Part shown: one piece after another, positions 2,381 to 45,981 of the stretch | How positions within the stretch are numbered: the first letter of the stretch is position 1 | How the letters are laid out: every line of letters starts with the position of its first letter | Source of the DNA: Desulfobacterales bacterium | GTDB lineage: Bacteria; Desulfobacterota; Desulfobacteria; Desulfobacterales; SURF-7 | DNA: 64,000 bases | Direction: 5' to 3' | Assembly (NCBI GenBank): GCA_028277765.1 | Contig: JANQFQ010000051.1 | Span: 1 to 64,000 of the forward strand | Made by a program: the position numbers and the translations under genes | Notes under the pieces: model-generated | Databases searched by the model: none | Told to the model about the DNA's origin: nothing | What the model saw: only the letters and a program-made list of their open reading frames with translations

Positions 2381-4018
2381 TCATGACATGCTTTCAATAT
2401 CTTTTAAGCGCTGCCATAGGGTTGTTGTTCCGATACCTAAAATGTCAGCGGCCTCTTTTTTTTTGTTGCCGGTGTGTTCCAGCACCAGCTTTGTATATCT
2501 GAGATCAAGTTCTTTCTGGGTAGGAAAATCAGTAGTTAAGTTATCAAGAAGACTCACAACATCCTGAATAATTGAAGGGGGCAAATGTTCCGGAAGAATC
2601 CGTTCATCACCAGCTAAAATAAGCGCATATTCAACACAGTTTTTCAATTCACGAACATTTCCTGGCCATGAATATTGTTCCATTCTACGGATAGCTTCTG
2701 GTGAAAACCCAGGATGCTTTTCATCTGTGTCTGAAAGGAAATGTCTTGCCAACAAAAGGATATCCTGCTTTCTTTGCCTTAGCGGAATGACCTGAATTGG
2801 AAATACAGCAAGACGGTAGTACAGATCCTCCCGGAATCTATTCTCCACAACCATCAATTTCAGGTCTTTATTTGTGGCAGCTATTATCCGGGTATGTATC
2901 GGTATCGGTTTTATTCCGCCAACAGGCCTTATTTCCTTTTCCTGCAGGGCCCTAATCAATTTTGCCTGAAGATCTATGGGCATGTCTCCGATTTCATCAA
3001 GAAAAAAAGTACCTTTGCCGGCTTCAGCAAGCAACCCTTTTTTGTTTGTTTCCGCGCCTGTAAACGCTCCTTTTACATAACCAAATAGCTCTGCTTCCAG
3101 CAGGTTCGGCGGCAGGGCAGCACAGTTAACAGCAAGAAAAGGGTATTGTTCCCGGCCGGATTTTTCATGAATGAACTTTGCCACAATCTCTTTCCCTGTA
3201 CCGCTTTCACCCTGTATAAGTATCGTCGCAGTGGTCGGGGCTGCTTTTTCAGCTAAAATGAGTGCCTGAGACATTGATTCACTTCTATAGATTATGCTGC
3301 TTTCTGTTATTGATGAACGGGTTTGCTTTTTCAGGCGGCGGATTTCAGCTCTTTGCATTACCAGTTCATCATTTGTCTGTTTAATCACCGTCCTCATATG
3401 GTCCAGCTCGTTATCAATTGTTTCTAATTTAAAATACTGTTCCACATTTTTTTCCGTTAACCCCCACCCGGCAATACTTCTCCCTTCAAACGTACAGAAA
3501 TCATTACCCTGTGCCTGGCAGGTCATCTCTCTTACAAGTACTTTTTGACCCGCTACCGTTGTTATGTAGCCGCTGGTCATACCAGCAAGGATATTGCAGA
3601 CAGGTGTTGGACTCAGTTCTTTATGCCTGTAACGCCATGCTTCCGCCTCAAATGAATCCCGCCAGATCCCTGTAACAGAGATGTTTTTTTCCTCCGGGTT
3701 AAACACAAATTCTTTAAATTCTTCTATGGCAATACCTGCCATTGGATATAAAACATTGCTCGCCTTTAACCATTCTTCCTGTGAATCAAAATCATACAAT
3801 TCAGAAATATACATGGCTACGCCGGTTCCTATTTCATAACCAAAACGATTCAGGATGATCAGCATTTGTTCGTATCCAACACTTGTGGTCAGGTCTTCAA
3901 TAAAACGGCACAGGGGCTCACCGCCCATTAGCATAATGCGTAAAGAACCAAAAAGGGGAAAGCCCTTTTTATTATCCATACCGAGCAATTCTTTAAAGCG
4001 CAAATCACATGCACGCAT
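2381..4018 (-). CDS. Sigma-54-dependent activator, XylR/DmpR-like with V4R ligand domain
   Basis: A 545-residue transcription activator. Residues about 20-190 form a XylR_N/V4R effector-binding region (including VREMTCQAQGNDFCTFEG), followed by a short coiled coil. A sigma-54 AAA+ domain follows, with Walker A GESGTGKE, the sigma-54-contacting GAFTGA loop and Walker B FFLDEIGD. A Fis-type helix-turn-helix lies at the end (KKKEAADILGIGTTTLWQRL). I chose the ATG at 4016-4018 because GAGGAG sits seven bases upstream; an ATG 15 bases earlier lacks a site. Family members sense small organic effectors, often aromatics, and switch on catabolic genes. It lies between the thiolase operon and the divergent FAD-oxidoreductase operon and likely controls one or both. 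The effector is unknown. Confidence 0.92.
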   Translation of the reverse strand: MRACDLRFKELLGMDNKKGFPLFGSLRIMLMGGEPLCRFIEDLTTSVGYEQMLIILNRFGYEIGTGVAMYISELYDFDSQEEWLKASNVLYPMAGIAIEEFKEFVFNPEEKNISVTGIWRDSFEAEAWRYRHKELSPTPVCNILAGMTSGYITTVAGQKVLVREMTCQAQGNDFCTFEGRSIAGWGLTEKNVEQYFKLETIDNELDHMRTVIKQTNDELVMQRAEIRRLKKQTRSSITESSIIYRSESMSQALILAEKAAPTTATILIQGESGTGKEIVAKFIHEKSGREQYPFLAVNCAALPPNLLEAELFGYVKGAFTGAETNKKGLLAEAGKGTFFLDEIGDMPIDLQAKLIRALQEKEIRPVGGIKPIPIHTRIIAATNKDLKLMVVENRFREDLYYRLAVFPIQVIPLRQRKQDILLLARHFLSDTDEKHPGFSPEAIRRMEQYSWPGNVRELKNCVEYALILAGDERILPEHLPPSIIQDVVSLLDNLTTDFPTQKELDLRYTKLVLEHTGNKKKEAADILGIGTTTLWQRLKDIESMS

Positions 4019-4564
4019 ATAAATACTCCTCAATTTCCGGAAAATAGAACGTTGTCTTCTTTTATTGTATAGCAGCCAGCAGCATTCTTTTCAAGTTGAA
4101 AGGGTTGCTTCGAAAAATGAATGCTGACAATTCGATGGATATATCCCTGTGAAAGATAACCATCTGAAAATTCACAATAATATTTTTCGGCACAACAATT
4201 GCTATAAATTACTGATGGCATTGATGGCGGGGTTTTCAGCATGGTTTTGCTGGAAGAATAAAGCAGATTGTTTAGACCATAGGTATTAAATTGTAATAAT
4301 TGTTCGACAATTATGTTTTAGATAAAGGCGGAATCGTTTTAGATTTTATCTTGACAGAATTGCTACTTAATGGCATATGATAAGATTTTTGCGGGAATAC
4401 GATCAATTTTAAAACAAAATTATAGAAAAGCGTACAACACTCATTTTTTGTACTAAATAGAGATAAAAAGCTGTATACATAAAAATATAGCCAGAAGAAA
4501 GAAGGATAAACTGAAATTATTTTAATAGTAATTGCCAAAGGAACCTAACGTTAAGGAGAAGGAA
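4019..4564. promoter_or_regulatory. Divergent regulatory region with palindrome, direct repeats and weak promoter
   Basis: About 545 AT-rich bases between the activator gene and the first FAD-oxidoreductase gene. A perfect palindrome ATAATTGT-TCG-ACAATTAT lies at 4296-4314. Just after it, GTTTTAGAT is repeated at 4315-4323 and 4336-4344, 21 bases apart (two helical turns). A TTGACA at 4351-4356 follows, with TATGAT at 4376-4381 (19-base spacer, weaker than ideal). These look like operator sites beside a promoter. No GG-N10-GC sigma-54 element was found on the plus strand. That is unexpected next to a sigma-54 activator. Confidence 0.45.
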
Positions 4565-6199
4565 ATGGCAGAAACTTTTGATATTATAATTATTGGTGCA
4601 GGTCCAAACGGTCTGGCGACTGGCGCCTACCTCAGCAAGGCTGGAGAGAAAGTTTTGATCATTGAGAAAAGGCTGGAAGAAGGCGGTGGGCTGATGACCG
4701 AACAGGTAACACTCCCTGAATTTTACCACAACACACATGCTTTATACATGATGATGGTGGATATGGCTCCCATCTATGATGATTTTAAGTTTGAAACAGA
4801 GTGGGATGTTCACCATGTTAAACCAGAAGTTCAGGTCGCACTACCCCTTTCGGACGGGAGCAAATGCCTGTGTATGTATACGGATGTTGATAAGACCTGT
4901 GAATCCATAGCGCAGTTTTCACAAAAAGATGCTGATACGTACCGCCTCATGCATGATGAATATAAAGAGTTCATGGATCGTATTCTCGGTCCGCAGACAT
5001 ATGCGCCAATGCAGGCTGCGCCGATAATGGCTGCAATGATGGAAAATTCAGAACTTGGAAAAAAGCTGTCTGAACTTGGAGAACAAACACCATATGAAAT
5101 CATAACCGAGCTTTATGAGAGTGATACGGTTCGTACCCTTATGCTTTATATGGGAACCCACTGGGGACTTGACTATGGTCAGTCCGGGGTCAGCTACATG
5201 GTTCCGATTTACCTGAACAGGATGGTGAATTATCAGATAACTTGCGGCGGCAGTCATAGGGTTTCAAACGCTCTTTACAAAGCTCTCTTCCGTGAACAGG
5301 GACAGATCAGGCAGAGCGCCACGATCAAGCGGTTTATCATTGAGAACGGCGAAGCAAAGGGCGTTGAACTTATTGACGGCAGAACCTATATGGCCAGCAA
5401 GGCTATTGTATCAACCATTGATCCGCAAAAGACGTTTTTGGAATATGTAGGCAGGGAAAACCTTGAAAATGATTTTGTGGATATGATTGAAGCCTATATG
5501 TGGGAAAAGTGGAGCCTCAACAATCTTCACTTAGCCCTGGAAGAACCGCCAAATTTTAAGGCAGCCGCGAACAATCCTGATGTAAACCGCGCGCTGTTCA
5601 CGATCCTTGGATATGATTCACTTTCAGACCTTACCACGTATTATGATGAGTTGCTGGAAGGTAAGCTTCCTTCAAAAATTGGTCTTACATGTACTTTTCC
5701 AAGTATTCATGATTCATATCAGGCACCTCCAGGAAAGGCATCTGCTTATGTTTCTCAGATGGCACCGTTTGATCTTCATGATGGCGGTAGTGAAAAATGG
5801 ATGGACCGGAATTTCAGGGAGCAGCGCAGCAAAGAGATGATTGATCTCTTAAAACAGTATATTGAAAACATCAACGAAGATACAATTATGGAAACATATA
5901 TGACCACCCCCATGGATATTCAGAACAAGTATGCGAACATGGTTAAGGGCGGCTATAAACAGGGCGCATATCACCCGCTTCAGATGGGTTTTCTCAGGCC
6001 AAACCAGGACTGTTCTAATTACAGCACGCCTGTTAAAAACCTGTATCTTGGAGGGGCCAGCGTGGCTCCAGGCGGAATGATCATATGGGGGCCCGGCTAT
6101 AACTGTGCTAATAAAATCGCTGAAGATTATAACGTTAAGAAGTGGTGGAAAGAACCAGAGTCTGTAACAAAGGCGCGCGAAGACGGTTTTGTAGCTTAA
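4565..6199 (+). CDS. FAD-dependent oxidoreductase, phytoene-desaturase-like (first of pair)
   Basis: A 544-residue NAD(P)/FAD-dependent oxidoreductase of the phytoene dehydrogenase/carotenoid isomerase group. The N-terminal dinucleotide fold is IIIIGAGPNGLATGAYLSKA, with the acidic end of strand 2 in VLIIEKRLEEGGG. The C-terminal FAD-contacting segment is YLGGASVAPGGMIIWGPGY. An internal GGSHRVSNALYKAL segment is typical. The ATG at 4565 is chosen over one 33 bases upstream because AAGGAGAAGG directly precedes it. It starts a three-gene plus-strand unit with a small unknown gene and a second oxidoreductase. No other carotenoid genes are nearby, so the substrate is more likely part of a catabolic pathway with the thiolases. 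That is inference. Confidence 0.88.
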   Translation: MAETFDIIIIGAGPNGLATGAYLSKAGEKVLIIEKRLEEGGGLMTEQVTLPEFYHNTHALYMMMVDMAPIYDDFKFETEWDVHHVKPEVQVALPLSDGSKCLCMYTDVDKTCESIAQFSQKDADTYRLMHDEYKEFMDRILGPQTYAPMQAAPIMAAMMENSELGKKLSELGEQTPYEIITELYESDTVRTLMLYMGTHWGLDYGQSGVSYMVPIYLNRMVNYQITCGGSHRVSNALYKALFREQGQIRQSATIKRFIIENGEAKGVELIDGRTYMASKAIVSTIDPQKTFLEYVGRENLENDFVDMIEAYMWEKWSLNNLHLALEEPPNFKAAANNPDVNRALFTILGYDSLSDLTTYYDELLEGKLPSKIGLTCTFPSIHDSYQAPPGKASAYVSQMAPFDLHDGGSEKWMDRNFREQRSKEMIDLLKQYIENINEDTIMETYMTTPMDIQNKYANMVKGGYKQGAYHPLQMGFLRPNQDCSNYSTPVKNLYLGGASVAPGGMIIWGPGYNCANKIAEDYNVKKWWKEPESVTKAREDGFVA

Positions 6200-38039: not shown

Positions 38040-38774
38040 ATGGATGTTAAAAGGGTCTTCGAGTGCAGTAAATATCTTCTCTATGCTGTAGCGATTATAA
38101 AAAATAATTTTCGTCCTTTATTAATACTGGCAGCGATCAGCCTTCTTTTGTTTGTGCCGTCTCCGACAGAAAGAGCTTCCAGCTTACTGGTTCTTATTTC
38201 ATTTTTTCTACTCATTATTTTCTATCCTTTATGCTATGGGCAATATATTGAAATAACATTACACAATCGAGAACTTTCTTACCATGAATTGTTTCATATC
38301 CATTGGTTGAATTTTTTTATCGTCAGTATCATACTCGGCATCCCGGGCCTTTTTGTTTTTATTTCTTTATCTGATGCAGATATGAATACCCAAAAATATT
38401 TAAGATCTATCGTGATGCTTACTATAGATATTATAGCAATATATATCATTCCAATCGTTTTTATTATAAAAAAAAGAATTCAAAGTATCACTTTGGGATT
38501 CAAATGTATCCTTGGCAATCTTGGCTATAGTATGCCCTTAATACTGCTGACTCTTATGTCATCAGGAATTAACATCGTCGTAAACTATCAATTAGAGAAT
38601 GATAGCTACGGTTTTGTTAATATTTTATATTTCTTATCGACGTTATTCATTATATACATTGATTTTATCGTCTTCATTGCCGCAACTCTTATCCTGAAGA
38701 ATAAAATATTTAAAAGCAGCGGCATGGTGACAGACCAAACATCTGTTTTCGATCATGACCTTGATCACGACTGA
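38040..38774 (+). CDS. Unknown integral membrane protein
   Basis: 244 residues with about six membrane helices (e.g. PLLILAAISLLLFV, LLVLISFFLLIIFYPLCYG, IVSIILGIPGLFVFISL, IYIIPIVFIIKK). It ends with the acidic tail VFDHDLDHD. A CGGGAG sequence lies about 12 bases before the ATG. The composition is AT-rich compared with its neighbours. I do not recognise the family. It lies just before the truncated secD fragment. Confidence 0.6.
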   Translation: MDVKRVFECSKYLLYAVAIIKNNFRPLLILAAISLLLFVPSPTERASSLLVLISFFLLIIFYPLCYGQYIEITLHNRELSYHELFHIHWLNFFIVSIILGIPGLFVFISLSDADMNTQKYLRSIVMLTIDIIAIYIIPIVFIIKKRIQSITLGFKCILGNLGYSMPLILLTLMSSGINIVVNYQLENDSYGFVNILYFLSTLFIIYIDFIVFIAATLILKNKIFKSSGMVTDQTSVFDHDLDHD

Positions 38775-38885: not shown

Positions 38886-39275
38886 ATGAAAAAGAGTATA
38901 AAATTGAGAATATTACTGGTAATTTCTTTACTTGGGATTTGTTTCTATCTCATATTTCCCATTGACCAGGCATTTACGCTAGGCCCTGATTTGCAAGGGG
39001 GAACACATTTTACTGTTCAGGTAATGACAGATACAATTCCTGAAAAGCAGAGAGAAGAGGCCATGGAAAGCACAGTAATGGTTTTAAGAAACCGGATTGA
39101 TGAATTAGGTATTATGGCTACAAGAGTAGAGCGGGCTGGTAATAACCGGATTTTTATTCAGGTGCCGGGTGTCAACCAAGAACAGGCAAATCACATAAAG
39201 GAAATAATAACAAAAACCGCTCATCTTGAATTTCGAATTGTTATTGATGGACCTGGTGCACCGATAATTGAATGA
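38886..39275 (+). pseudogene. Truncated secD-like gene (N-terminal 129 residues only)
   Basis: 129 residues beginning with the SecD first membrane helix (KLRILLVISLLGICFYLIF), then the SecD signature LGPDLQGGTHFTVQV and the P1 domain segment VLRNRIDELGIMATRVERAG...VPGVNQ. The frame stops at TGA 39273-39275, after about a quarter of a normal SecD (roughly 500-600 residues). It has lost the other five membrane helices, so it cannot work as SecD. A GGGAGAGGTG site and intact frame mean it may still be translated. The stop immediately abuts the chemoreceptor gene's end. A short remnant of the same sequence lies at 40636-40660. Confidence 0.8.
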
Positions 39276-40598
39276 TTAACTATTTACATCAAACTTTGCG
39301 ACATTCTCCATCAGCTGTTCAGCTAGACCCGTCATTCTGTTAGAATTTTCTTTTACCTGGAAACTACTGGTCGAGATGATCCCCACATCAACGGTTACAT
39401 CTGCAATGTCGACAGTGATTTTTTCAAGCTCGTTTAAGCCTTCGGTCACATTTTTATTAACCTGTTTTATATTGTCAGAAGCCATACTCACATTACTGGC
39501 AATTTCAGAAGTAGCTATGGACTGCTCCTCAACTGCCGCTACTATACTCGCCACGATACGATTACTATCGTCGATAACCTTTGTTATCTCTTCAATCTCT
39601 ACAATGGTGCCAGAAGCAGTCTGCTGAACACCTTCAACCCTCCCTTTTATCTCCTGTGTTGCTTCAGCGGTCTGTCTTGCCAGTTCCTTGATCTCACCTG
39701 CAACCACCGCAAATCCTTTGCCGGCTTCACCGGCCCTTGCTGCTTCAATGGTGGCGTTTAAGGCCAGAAGATTGGTCTGCTCGGAAATTTCAGTAATGGT
39801 CTCTGTGACCTTGCCGATATCCTGGGCGGCTTTACCCAGCTCTTCCACTTTTTCTGAAGCACTTTTGGCCTGGGCAACAGCCGCATCGCTCGATTTGCCT
39901 GCTTTTGACGAATTGTTCGCAACATCATTTAAAGCAATAGTATTCTCTTCTACTGCGGATGCGATTTCACTGATATTTCTTGCGGCTTCATCCATGTTTT
40001 TTCCCATGGCTATCATATTTTTACTTGTGTCCTTTGCGGAAGATTCAACCGTGTTCGCTTTTGCAAGAGAACTGTCTACCTTCTCAGACATCTGACCGAA
40101 AAGCATGTTAAGATTTTCTGCCATATTCAGATTGTCAGCTGTATTATTTTTTATGCTATTGATCAGAACAGCTATCTCATCAACCGTAATACTAAGCTTT
40201 TTAGAAATCTCACCCACTTCATCTTTTGTTTTAACCACGCCAAGGTCCACGGTAAGATCGCCCTTTGAGAGCGCGTCAAGCCGGTCAATCAGCAGGTTCA
40301 TAGGATTAAGGGTGGTTTTTAAAAACACCAGCATGGCGCTATGGCTGGCGATCCCGACTATCACACATACTATAATGACCCTCGAAAGAGAAAAATGAGG
40401 ACCGAACAGCCACCCACCAAGAGCGAGGATGGAAAGCCCAACGACCGCTATGATGGCGAAAAACTTAAATCTCAGGGACCATCTGAAAAGATGCCACATA
40501 ACAACAGCTGATATTAAGCAGGCTAAGGCACCAACGATTAAAAAACAACTGTATTGATGTTCAAAAATCCACCCGTTTAATTGGTGATAAAATTCCAT
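39276..40598 (-). CDS. Methyl-accepting chemotaxis protein (first tandem copy)
   Basis: 440 residues. About three membrane helices near the N-terminus (residues 15-95) leave no periplasmic sensor domain. They are followed by a HAMP-like linker ([17 protein letters not shown]) and a long cytoplasmic signalling coiled coil with the invariant tip [23 protein letters not shown]-type segment. It probably senses something at or in the membrane or cytoplasm, and signals to CheA/CheW, which are not in the window. It is nearly identical to the gene at 40670-41992, especially in the C-terminal half. Confidence 0.95.
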
Positions 40599-40635
40599 TT
40601 TGATGTCCTTTTACTTATACTAATATTCGATAACT

Positions 40636-40680
40636 GTTTTAAGAAACCGGATCGATGAATATTGAATGATTAACTATTTA
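40636..40680 (+). pseudogene. Remnant of a second secD fragment with internal deletion
   Basis: 40636-40660 matches 39081-39105 in the secD fragment (25 bases, one difference). It is joined directly to 40661-40680, which matches 39267-39286 (end of the fragment and start of the chemoreceptor 3' end). About 160 bases present in the first copy are missing here. Confidence 0.8.
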
Positions 40681-41992
40681 CAACAAACTTTGCGACATTC
40701 TCCATCAGCTGTTCCGCGATATGGGTCATATTTCGCGAGTTGTCTTTTACTTTGTCACTACTGTCCGATATGCTTTCTATATCATCGGTAACATCAGAAA
40801 CATCTGTTGTAATTTTTTCCAGCTCGTTTAACCCGGATGACACATTTATATTAACCCCTTTTATGTTGTCAGAAGCCAGAACAACATTTTTTGCGATTTC
40901 CTCGGTGGCGATGGTTTGTTCTTCCACGGCCGCGACAATACCCGTCACAATGGTATTGCTGTTATCAATAACTTTTGTTATTTCTTCTATTTCAACAATA
41001 GTACCATTGGCGGTATTCTGAACACCTTCAATTTTTGCTTTTATTTCCAGGGTAGCTTCAGCGGTCTGTCTTGCCAGTTCCTTTATTTCGCCAGCGACCA
41101 CGGCAAAGCCTTTGCCAGTCTCACCAGCCCTTGCCGCTTCAATAGTGGCGTTTAATGCCAGAAGATTGGTCTGCTCGGAAATCTCGGTAATGGTCTCTGT
41201 GACCTTGCCGATATCCTGAGCGGCGTTACCCAGCTCTTCTACTTTTTCTGAAGCACTTTTGGCTTGGATAACAGCCGCGTCGCTCGATTTGCCTGCTTTT
41301 GACGAACTGTTTGCGACTTCATTTAAAGCAACTGTGTTCTCTTCTACTGTAGATGCAATTTCACCAATATTTGTTGCTGCGTCATCCATGGCTGATCCCA
41401 TGGTTATCATGCTCCCGCTTGTATCCTTTGCTGAGGATGCAACCGTGCTCGCTTTTAAAAGAGAACTTTCCACCTTTTCAGACATCTGCCCTGAAAGTAT
41501 GGAAAGGTTCTCCGCCATACCCAGGTTGTCGGTGGTATTGTTTTGTATGGCATTAATCAGAATAGCTATCTCAGCAACAGTGATATCAAGCTTTTCTGAA
41601 ATCCGTCCAATTTCATCTCTTGTTTTCACAACACGTAAATCCACGGCAAGATCTCCCTTTGAGAGCGCGTCAAGCCGTTCGATCAGTAGGTGCATGGGAT
41701 TAAGGGTGGTTTTTAAAAAAAGAAGCATGGCGCAATGGCTGGCGATCCCGATTAATACACCTGCGATGGCGACTCGTATCAGAGAAAAATTGGGGCTGAA
41801 CAACCAACCGGCAAGGGCCAGGATTGAAAGTCCAACGACAGCTATGATGGCAAAAAACTTGAATCTCAGGGACCACCTGTACAGATACCACATAACAACA
41901 GCCGCCAAAGAGCAGCAAATGGCGCCGATTATTATAAAAAAAAGGAACTGATTTACCAAGACCCACGCATTTAACTGGTGATAAATTTCCAT
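40670..41992 (-). CDS. Methyl-accepting chemotaxis protein (second tandem copy)
   Basis: 440 residues, the same layout as the copy at 39276: three N-terminal membrane helices, a HAMP-like linker ([17 protein letters not shown]), then the signalling domain with [19 protein letters not shown]. The two differ mostly in the membrane part and in scattered residues; the tip region is identical. That pattern fits a tandem duplication with later divergence or gene conversion. There is no periplasmic ligand domain. The copies are 71 bases apart, in the same direction. Confidence 0.95.
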
Positions 41993-42309
41993 TTTAGATG
42001 TCCTTATATTATCTATATATGTATACTGATAGTGGATATATTGCTTCCAAAAAAAAAAGCAATAAAAATATATTATTTAAATACCACAGACATGTCTGTT
42101 TTCAAGGGAAAAATCAGCCAGTTAGATATGTCTTTACAACGATCAGCAATCTGAGATATTAAAATGGGCTGTAGGGGCGAATCTATGTGTTCGCCCATCT
42201 GATAAATTTTTATCATGTAGGGACAAAGAATGAGGATGATACCCAAATTTGGCAGAAACACAGGTCTGCCCCTACAATTAAACTCGCAGTTATTAACAGA
42301 GAAAGCCTT
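41993..42309. repeat. Intergenic region with TGTAGGGGCGAA inverted repeat
   Basis: TGTAGGGGCGAATCTATGTG (from 42170) and its inverse ACACAGGTCTGCCCCTACA (42258-42276) form an imperfect inverted repeat. The left arm also contains GGGCGAA...TTCGCCC. This repeat family also occurs near 18101, 58680 and 60455. A frame open from 42187 runs through it into the MMPL gene. The rest, 41993-42160, shows nothing clear. Confidence 0.7.
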
Positions 42310-44715
42310 TTGAGTAATATAAAAAACCAAATTGAAAAACAGTTTGAACGCCTGGCAAACAGTATATTTGAAAACAGATATAAAACCCTTGTTATTGTTC
42401 TCGTTGTCGCCGCATGTCTCATGTCCCAGCTGCCGAAAACAACCATGGATACGTCCACGGAAAGCTTTCTCCATGAAAATGATCCTGCGTTAAAAGGGTA
42501 TGAACGGTTCAGGGACCAATTCGGCAGGGAGAATATGATCGTTATCGCCCTGAACCCGCCGAATATATTTGATGAACATTTCCTGGCTGATCTCAGGGCG
42601 CTCCATGATGACCTTGAAGAGAATGTGCCTTATCTTGAAGATATCACCAGCCTAGTAAACGCAAGAAACACATACGGCATTGAGGACGAACTGATCGTTG
42701 ATGACCTTCTTGAAAAATGGCCGGAAACACCCGAAGAGCTTAAGGAGATAGAAAAAAGAGCGCGTGACAACCCAATCTATAAAAACCTTCTCCTGTCCGA
42801 AGACGGCAACTTCACAACAATTGTAATCCAGGGCGATACCTATTCCCATGAAGGGCTCACTTTGGATGAGACAGAGGACTTTGGTGATAATATAGAGGAT
42901 GAGACACAACAGAAAAAATATCTGACAGACGAAGAAAATGGAGAAATGGTTGCTGCTGTTGAAGAGATACTGAAACGGCACCCTTTTAATAACACAGAGA
43001 TCTTTGCAGGTGGCTCTCCTGTGGTGGGCCATTTCTTGAAACGGGTCATGTCAAAAGACATGCGAAAATTTACTGTCATATCGGTCAGCACCATTGCTGT
43101 TTTTCTGTTTATCATGTTCAGAAGAATTTCCGGCATCCTCTTGCCGCTCTTCATTGTTATTGTTTCCTTGCTGTCAACCTTCGGGCTGATGGCTGCAACC
43201 CGCACCCCCCTGAAAATACCCACCCAGATACTCCCCTCATTTATCCTTGCAGTAGGTGTGGGCTATTCTGTGCACATCCTGGCCATCTTCTTTTATCATT
43301 TTAACCAGAATGGTAGAAAAAAACAGGCAATCGCCTATGCCATGGGTCATTCCGGGCTCGCGGTAATGCTTACGGGGATTACAACCGCCAGCGGGCTCAT
43401 GTCCTTTTCAACTGCTGCGGTGGCGCCAATAGCCGACCTTGGCATATTCGCTGCTGCTGGCGTGATGCTGGCGTTTATTTACACGGTCGTACTTCTCCCT
43501 GCCCTGCTTGCTGTTTTTCCAATAAAGTCGAAACCGGTTTCAGGTAATGAAAATAGCAATGATATAAAAATGGATCGTCTGTTGGCTTATATAGGGAGTA
43601 TTTCTATAAACTATCCATACCGGGTTCTTTGTGTGGCTTTTATTATTATAATTGTTTCCGCCTGGGGGATGTTAAAAATAAATTTTTCACACAACCCACT
43701 CAAATGGCTTCCTAAGACAAACGCTGCGCGGATCGCGAATGAAAGGATAGACAAAGAACTTAAGGGATCGACCAGCATGGAGATCGTGATCAATACCGGG
43801 CAGGAGAATGGTTTGTATGAACCGGAAATACTCGACAGGCTAGAAAAGAGCGTTGATTTTGTTGAAAACTATACGTCTGACAAACTTAGTGTGGGCAAGG
43901 CATGGTGCCTTACCACGGTATTAAAAGAAATCAACCAGGCCCTGCACGCGAATGATAAAAACTTTTATACTCTCCCCCGGGACAAAAATCTCATTGCCCA
44001 GGAATTTCTTCTTTTTGAGAACAGCGGTTCAGATGACCTTGAAGACCTTACAGACAGCCGGTTTTCCATGGCACGCTTTACGATCAAGGCCCCTCTGATT
44101 GATGCCATTGAATATGCTGAATTTGTTGAAAACATGGAAAATCATTTCAGAAAGACATACCCGGAAGCAGAGATAGAGGTTACCGGAATCATACCCATGT
44201 ATGTCCGGATCATCCACAGTGCGATCATCAGCCTGAGAAATAGTTATGGTTACGCGATGATTATTATCACGATCATGATGATTCTGCTGATTGGCAGGAT
44301 CCGTATCGGCCTGATGTCCATGATACCGAACGTAGCGCCGATTCTGGTGATACTTGGTATAATGGGATGGATAAAAATGCCGATGGATCTTTTTTCCATG
44401 ATGGTAGGGAGTATTGCTATCGGCCTTGCTGTTGACGATACCATCCATTTTATGCATAATTTCAGGCGGTACCTTGAAGAGGGAAATAATGCCGGGGATG
44501 CTGTGCTGATGACACTACAAACAGCCGGACGGGCCATGCTGATTACAACATGCGTTCTGTCTATCGGGTTTTTCACTTTTATTTTTGCCAGCATAGGTAA
44601 TCTGTATAATTTCGGCATCCTGACCGCCACAACGATAATATTGGCACTGTTATCAGACTATTTTATCGCACCCGCGCTTCTGATCGTTATCTACAGGAAA
44701 AAGGGGGAAGCATGA
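42310..44715 (+). CDS. MMPL/RND-superfamily exporter
   Basis: About 801 residues from a TTG at 42310. Two repeats, each with one membrane helix, a large periplasmic loop and five further helices, give about 12 helices (e.g. FTVISVSTIAVFLFIMF, ILPSFILAVGVGYSVHILAI, and GSIAIGLAVDDTIHFMHNF late on). VGVGYSVH and AVDDTIHF are the conserved helix-4-like motifs with the proton-relay Asp pair in the second. Such proteins export lipids or other hydrophobic compounds; the substrate is unknown. The frame is open from an ATG at 42187, but those 41 codons lie in a dispersed repeat, so I prefer the TTG. A 29-codon gene overlaps the stop. Confidence 0.88.
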   Translation: MSNIKNQIEKQFERLANSIFENRYKTLVIVLVVAACLMSQLPKTTMDTSTESFLHENDPALKGYERFRDQFGRENMIVIALNPPNIFDEHFLADLRALHDDLEENVPYLEDITSLVNARNTYGIEDELIVDDLLEKWPETPEELKEIEKRARDNPIYKNLLLSEDGNFTTIVIQGDTYSHEGLTLDETEDFGDNIEDETQQKKYLTDEENGEMVAAVEEILKRHPFNNTEIFAGGSPVVGHFLKRVMSKDMRKFTVISVSTIAVFLFIMFRRISGILLPLFIVIVSLLSTFGLMAATRTPLKIPTQILPSFILAVGVGYSVHILAIFFYHFNQNGRKKQAIAYAMGHSGLAVMLTGITTASGLMSFSTAAVAPIADLGIFAAAGVMLAFIYTVVLLPALLAVFPIKSKPVSGNENSNDIKMDRLLAYIGSISINYPYRVLCVAFIIIIVSAWGMLKINFSHNPLKWLPKTNAARIANERIDKELKGSTSMEIVINTGQENGLYEPEILDRLEKSVDFVENYTSDKLSVGKAWCLTTVLKEINQALHANDKNFYTLPRDKNLIAQEFLLFENSGSDDLEDLTDSRFSMARFTIKAPLIDAIEYAEFVENMENHFRKTYPEAEIEVTGIIPMYVRIIHSAIISLRNSYGYAMIIITIMMILLIGRIRIGLMSMIPNVAPILVILGIMGWIKMPMDLFSMMVGSIAIGLAVDDTIHFMHNFRRYLEEGNNAGDAVLMTLQTAGRAMLITTCVLSIGFFTFIFASIGNLYNFGILTATTIILALLSDYFIAPALLIVIYRKKGEA

Positions 44716-44921: not shown

Positions 44922-45122
44922 ATGATGGGCAGGAAAAAGAAAAATATCGCTGAGATAGATCCAGATTCATGTATGCACTGCTTTGAGTGCATAGACATCT
45001 GCCCTCTAAATGCAATCAATGATGACCTGGCTGTTGATGGCTCCCTTTGTGACGGATGCGGTAAATGTGAAGAAAACTGCCCCTCTGTCGCAATTGAGTT
45101 GGTTGAAATTGATACGACTTAA
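44922..45122 (+). CDS. 2[4Fe-4S] ferredoxin
   Basis: 66 residues from the ATG at 44922 (MMGRKKKNIAEIDPDSC). Two cluster-binding motifs, CMHCFECIDICP and CDGCGKCEENCP, are those of bacterial dicluster ferredoxins. The protein is a low-potential electron carrier, or supplies electrons for cluster work with the neighbouring Mrp ATPase. A longer in-frame reading from a TTG at 44892 adds ten residues but has no ribosome binding site. It ends 16 bases before mrp, so the two are in an operon. Confidence 0.88.
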   Translation: MMGRKKKNIAEIDPDSCMHCFECIDICPLNAINDDLAVDGSLCDGCGKCEENCPSVAIELVEIDTT

Positions 45123-45138
45123 ATGGAGGAAACATATT

Positions 45139-45981
45139 ATGGCACATACACAAAGTGGTATTGGAATTATGGATAAACCACCCCAGCAGGGGCCGGATCC
45201 TCAAGAAAAGGTGAAAAAATCTCTTGCTCAGATTAAGAACAAGCTGATTGTCATGAGTGGAAAAGGGGGGGTTGGCAAATCAAGCGTTTCAGTAAACATG
45301 AGTATCGCCCTTGCCAACAAAGGGTATAAGGTGGGCCTGATGGATGTTGATATTCATGGGCCGGATATCCCAAGAATGCTCGGGCTTGAAGGGGTTCTTG
45401 ATGTAACCTCCGGGCAGAAGCTTGCACCAAAGAAGTTTTCTGACAACCTTGCCGCGGTTTCCATTGAATCGCTGACGTTAAATAAGGATGATGCCATTAT
45501 TTGGCGTGGTCCCATAAAACATTCAGCCATCATGCAGTTTATCAGTGATGTTGAGTGGGGTGATCTTGATTTCCTTATTATCGATTCTCCACCCGGAACC
45601 GGAGATGAACCGTTAACAGTGGCCCAGCTGATTAATGACGCCCAGGCGGTTATTGTGACAACACCCCAGGAAATAGCACTGGCTGATGTCAGGAAATCGA
45701 TCAACTTCTGCAAGACGGTTAACATGAAAGTGTATGGAATAATTGAAAATATGAGCGGATTTATCTGCCCCCACTGTAGTGAAACCGTGGATATTTTTGG
45801 ATCAGGGGGCGGAGAAAAGACAGCCAAGGATACAGGTATAACCTTCCTTGGCAGGGTACCGTTTGATCCGAACGTGGTCACATGCGGAGACGCAGGAAAA
45901 TCGTTTCAGGATGAACATAAAGATTCTGCGGTAACAAAGGCGTTTATTGAAATAGCAGACAAAGTTTCAGAAATTCTGTAG
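45139..45981 (+). CDS. Mrp/NBP35-family iron-sulfur carrier ATPase
   Basis: 280 residues from the ATG at 45139, which has ATGGAGGAAAC upstream. It has the deviant Walker A motif MSGKGGVGKSSVSVNM, then LMDVDIHGPDIPRMLG and IIDSPPGTGDEPLTVAQL, all hallmarks of the Mrp/ApbC P-loop group. The bridging cluster-binding CPHC is in SGFICPHCSETVDIFG near residue 210. It probably binds and transfers Fe-S clusters. Sulfate reducers carry several such genes; here it follows a ferredoxin and precedes a small unknown gene. Confidence 0.93.
   Translation: MAHTQSGIGIMDKPPQQGPDPQEKVKKSLAQIKNKLIVMSGKGGVGKSSVSVNMSIALANKGYKVGLMDVDIHGPDIPRMLGLEGVLDVTSGQKLAPKKFSDNLAAVSIESLTLNKDDAIIWRGPIKHSAIMQFISDVEWGDLDFLIIDSPPGTGDEPLTVAQLINDAQAVIVTTPQEIALADVRKSINFCKTVNMKVYGIIENMSGFICPHCSETVDIFGSGGGEKTAKDTGITFLGRVPFDPNVVTCGDAGKSFQDEHKDSAVTKAFIEIADKVSEIL

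Follow-up and report, generated by a model that had tools for sequence, protein, structure and literature searches.

How two chemoreceptor genes came to stand side by side with a scrap of secD between them, and what such receptors may sense, are the questions raised by positions 38886-41992 of the window, by which we mean the whole 64,000-nucleotide stretch of DNA analysed. An earlier note had read this locus as the fossil of a tandem duplication. The tandem duplication is real and ordinary in kind, and it carries an informative secD scrap.

Layout of the locus and the joint between the copies

The locus begins with an open reading frame on the forward strand (38886-39275, +), which encodes a 129-aa 5' fragment of a divergent, compact SecD/SecDF, comprising the first transmembrane (TM) helix and the start of the P1 domain, as assigned with Pfam and NCBIfam and by alignment with 3aqp. 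This frame is convergent with the gene of chemoreceptor 1 (39276-40598, −; 440 aa, with three TM helices, HAMP and MCP signalling domain, from Pfam and an AF2 model), and the 3' ends of the two abut at 39275/39276. A gap of 71 bases follows, and then the gene of chemoreceptor 2 (40670-41992, −; also 440 aa). The two receptors have 77% amino acid identity, and they are sisters, with support 100/99, in the tree of the 38 short receptors found in this genome.

Within the gap, bases 40636-40660 (+) are the secD remnant with which copy 2 starts. They match 39081-39105 (+), the codons VLRNRIDE of the SecD frame, at 24 of 25 positions, as previously noticed, and in a repeat search the match extends to 39076-39105 / 40631-40660 (27/30, 90%). 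From 40661 onward the sequence corresponds to 39267 onward, also as previously noticed: the nine bases ATTGAATGA (40661-40669, strand not applicable) are common to 39267-39275, and the repeat search returned a second block, 39267-39566 / 40661-40960. The spacings of the first and second blocks are 1555 and 1394, and since these differ by exactly 161, 161 bases (39106-39266, +) are missing from copy 2. The loss of about 160 bases that had been proposed for the second secD fragment therefore holds in its extent, the bases being either lost or skipped.

On the promoter side, the flank of receptor 1 (40599-40635, −) is homologous to that of receptor 2 (41993-42037, −) up to the junction, as determined by local alignment. 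When 40599-40635 was aligned with 41993-42045, 0 of 2000 shuffles were as good, and without the RBS part of the flanks the p value was 0.0165. The flanks have diverged, with 6 of 34 aligned bases different and an 11-base gap, and their homology stops at about 42037 in copy 2 and at the start of the secD remnant in copy 1. Because the homology ends at the remnant, the duplicated unit can be drawn as starting at 39081 and taking in the receptor and its promoter, with the joint at 40635/40636. The remnant match and the flank homology up to the junction both support the original suggestion that a secD fragment was duplicated together with the chemoreceptor, and the two genes qualify as a tandem pair, being sister paralogues that lie next to each other and whose flanks are homologous.

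We consider it likely that a unit of secD piece, receptor and short promoter was duplicated locally in tandem, and that 161 bases were then lost or skipped. The unit would have consisted of the 3' part of a secD ORF that was truncated by then, the convergent chemoreceptor gene and ~37 promoter-side bases, and its duplication would have formed the new joint; copy 2 would retain just 25 secD bases because the 161 bases were deleted or skipped. It is also possible, though we hold this only tentatively, that a single complex event was responsible, in which replication template switching duplicated the receptor and its promoter and the 25 bases were a templated insertion from secD 161 bases away, with no later deletion. 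One such event yields the same sequence, and a short microhomology (TAA) is present at the left joint, the match being 27/30 when extended; however, ATTGAATGA and then the receptor come in their usual order, which a deletion would produce as well, and the papers listed on templated insertion, judged by their titles, appear to be eukaryotic. The sequence does not distinguish a deletion that followed duplication from one template jump.

On the left of the secD piece, 38040-38774 encodes a 244-aa protein to which no family was assigned; it is A+T-rich and rich in hydrophobic stretches, and 3 of 58 relatives have distant matches to it. On the right, 42187-44715 encodes an MMPL/RND transporter with 13 matches in its own genome, and MMPL transporters flank three short-receptor loci. 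An imperfect inverted repeat, TGTAGGGGCG...GCCCCTACA, which resembles a small repeat element, occupies the gap before the MMPL gene (42170-42276), and no further full copy of it was found in the own-genome loci fetched or in the rest of the window. The locus was not recovered in relatives through the flanking MMPL gene, whose homologues (54-63%) in five relatives lie among other genes, nor through the flanking Mrp gene, which gave 11 loci with no neighbourhood conserved with the window; an ancestral state with one receptor copy is thus not seen among these relatives.

Divergence of the receptors and age of the joint

The next-best own-genome match has 59% identity (29 own-genome matches scored). 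For the pair as a whole dN is 0.145 and dS is 0.76, and it therefore looks like old duplicates under purifying selection, which would have kept both receptors intact. By 40-residue blocks from N to C terminus, amino acid identity is 55, 80, 82, 72, 72, 80, 95, 90, 80, 72 and 68%. The statement that the receptors differ mainly in the membrane part is thus right for residues 1-40 (55%) but not for residues 41-120, with 80-82%, and the C terminus varies as well (68-72% in residues 361-440). The signalling tip, which had been called identical, differs at one position of the core hairpin; it is conserved, but since the hairpin is near-invariant in all 38 paralogues, this says nothing special about receptors 1 and 2.

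Synonymous divergence along the receptors, a comparison that the earlier note had proposed, is uneven (p 0.0026 for the range); the low values lie around codons 228-260 (p 0.26, not significant by themselves) and the high ones around codons 327-362 (p 0.0016, significant). In the receptor tail, 12 successive same-residue codons that could vary synonymously are unchanged up to the stop, with a shuffle p value of 0.0048. The limits of this patch, however, were set by eye, and when the same script takes the longest run at any position p is 0.43, and for the last 18 codons it is 0.05. The other 36 paralogues do not have these tail codons in common. Taken together, the 25 bases of the remnant, the nine bases and the 45 coding-end bases including the stop make up 79 positions with 2 mismatches.

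The word fossil does not fit these data, because without constraint a relic of the receptors' age should have decayed, which the remnant has not done. In neutral simulations at 0.38 changes per site and lineage, one mismatch or fewer in 25 was obtained in 0 of 4000 runs, and at 0.2 in 0.2% of runs. At 0.38, with substitutions only, the 129-codon secD frame stays open in ~3% of runs; the open frame is either younger than the receptor divergence or selected. With the remnant and tail near-unchanged beside an overall dS of ~0.76, we read the joint as younger or homogenised: it looks as if the stretch around it (remnant, nine bases and last 14 codons) was later homogenised between the copies, or as if the joint is younger than the receptor divergence. 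Gene conversion with the C71, C96, C75 and C126 receptors was also considered, and a three-sequence pattern scan gave p values of 0.02-0.76 in 8 tests, which is not convincing.

A recent joining, by recombination in the common tail, of receptors that had already diverged as another strain's allele or at another locus would account for the near-identical tail and remnant beside bodies with a dS of 0.76, as well as for the secD frame that is still open. We nevertheless regard it as unlikely: the promoter flanks are homologous yet diverged, as expected if they were diverging along with the receptors, and no donor was found among the matches scored in the 58 relatives. For the favoured course, a local duplication in which 161 bases were then lost or skipped, the state of the joint would call for later homogenisation or for a joint younger than the receptor bodies.

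Origin and state of the secD piece

The frame at 38886-39275 is identified as SecD by Pfam SecD_1st PF21760 (E 1.1e-17), TIGR01129 (E 5.1e-21) and NCBIfam SecDF (2.7e-24), and it covers the first ~122 residues of a compact SecD/SecDF. Its residues 7-123 align with residues 8-122 of the chain of SecDF 3aqp (T. thermophilus-type), and the N-terminal TM1 and the start of P1 are present. Unlike SecD/SecDF it has nothing past the start of P1: the complete P1 domain and the six TM helices of SecD are absent, and the frame stops at 129 aa. A DNA query of 39081-39280 matches only the two places described above in the entire genome, and no secD piece was found beside the other receptors of the genome.

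The genome's own secD is a 934-residue frame on C9, and a recent copy of it is ruled out by an identity of 41% over residues 53-119 and by the different architecture. The piece is without the ~80-residue P1 insertion of 21 aligned SecD (own genome and relatives), and it carries the motif LGPDLQGG, where the other SecD rows that extend over it, 20 of the 21, have LGLDLQGG or LGLDLLGG. No close source was found in the phylum sample, in which 9 of 395 genomes (own included) matched at E<=1e-11 with a best identity of 47%, or in the plasmid collection, where all 54 matching records are below 60%. Third-position G+C is 0.31 in the piece versus 0.44 in both receptors. Judged from the sequence, it is probable that the piece was acquired, and truncated afterwards, rather than copied from the resident gene, since the own secD reaches 41%, the P1 insertion is absent and the best identity in the phylum is 47%.

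Selection could in principle maintain the secD-derived ORF and the remnant, for instance as a small membrane protein or an RNA end signal, and the 129-codon frame is indeed open and preceded by a Shine-Dalgarno-like GGAGAGG, while the remnant has hardly changed. This is improbable, given that the ORF is truncated inside P1 and departs from the motif of the other SecD rows, that no clear stand-alone form occurs among the relatives, where three short frames of 132-243 aa are present, and that no terminator is predicted in the 71-base gap. A chance match or an assembly artefact is hardly credible, even in a draft genome of 156 contigs: the best 25-base match between the secD ORF and the intergenic gap has 1 mismatch, against 7-12 mismatches in a control with 287 further 71-base pieces of the window, left from 300 drawn after those close to the region had been passed over, and the longest exact run within the match, 17 bases, makes a misjoin at a common k-mer unlikely.

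Membrane-only receptors in this genome and comparison with known systems

Both receptors have an MCP signalling domain with a conserved hairpin tip (PF00015 MCPsignal, E 9.2e-34 and 2.8e-31) and, after the last TM helix, a HAMP domain (PF00672, E 1e-6 and 1.2e-6). Periplasmic or cytoplasmic ligand-binding domains are common in methyl-accepting chemotaxis proteins, though not obligatory, and in neither receptor was one matched by Pfam ahead of HAMP. The earlier suggestion of a new sensing specificity is therefore not supported. In the AF2 model of receptor 1, residues 1-138 form three TM helices with short loops and no extra-membrane domain (mean pLDDT 90), and a fold comparison of this membrane part gave 40 PDB matches, 0 of them at E<=0.001. 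CheW-domain genes are found in the genome. The receptors are probably membrane-embedded inputs, in which the three TM helices would act through HAMP and the standard signalling tip on CheW/CheA, with no periplasmic sensor; a dissolved compound, the state of the membrane or a partner protein are candidates for the input.

An own-genome search with the MCP-signal family gave 57 matches, some of which are pieces of one gene. Among the 49 receptor ORFs read, taken from fetched stretches by blastp to receptor 1 (E<=1e-10), 38 are 427-490 aa long and of the short three-helix type without ligand-binding domain, an architecture predicted on receptor 1, with the Pfam gap before HAMP checked in the two window receptors. 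These 38 have a common membrane part, covered by no Pfam family in the two window receptors. Among the relatives, 3 of the 121 matches listed sit in open frames shorter than 500 aa, the 58 relatives having at least 121 receptor matches, with at most 29 candidates scored per genome. A profile of the membrane part, which is short and variable and may miss distant relatives, gave weak matches in five sampled relatives altogether: one in the order sample (388 other genomes; E 2.8e-4; the matching frame has 883 residues) and four in the phylum sample (394 other genomes; E 1e-4 to 9e-4). No more than 13 or 14 candidates were scored in any one genome. Among the papers listed in literature searches, none dealt with the short receptor set of this genome.

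The short receptors lie among unrelated neighbour genes, the commonest Pfam family being found in 4 of the 101 proteins scanned, which argues against a common partner (105 were collected; of the four window proteins left out, three were scanned separately and 45010-45981 is unscanned). The dispersed pair C39/C82 is alike within the gene only. A second, younger tandem pair is present on L089 (C28) at 3209-4507 and 4795-6081, with 85% DNA identity; there the gene and its upstream region (~130 bases) were duplicated, and nothing further.

With some hesitation, we suggest that receptors 1 and 2 are a twig of a lineage-private radiation of 38 dispersed receptors, grown by tandem and dispersed duplication, whose sole input may be a fast-diverging three-helix bundle reading membrane-dissolved or membrane-state signals or partners, rather than periplasmic ligands. 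The pair is a worked example of how a receptor repertoire grows, and what seems to be a private expansion of membrane-only receptors is of more interest than the secD scrap. The pair also gives entry to a large receptor set without ligand-binding domain, on whose many natural variants membrane-embedded sensing might be studied.

Two known systems resemble parts of this picture. The Pct receptors of Pseudomonas (PctA/PctB/PctC; PMC6974571) are likewise neighbouring genes that arose by duplication and whose input part changes rapidly, and such paralogous receptors with changed ligand range are a precedent for divergence. The Pct proteins, however, have dCache domains of changed specificity, whereas receptors 1 and 2 have none and enclose a secD scrap. 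CetA of Campylobacter jejuni (PMC3558505) is a membrane receptor that works with the separate PAS proteins CetB/CetC, and its input, as may be the case here, may come from a partner protein. CetA is reported to be N-in with a periplasmic loop, whereas receptor 1 has three predicted TM helices, and no PAS gene adjoins receptors 1 and 2, in contrast to the PAS partners of CetA; signalling of the CetA type is nonetheless a precedent for input through a partner protein.
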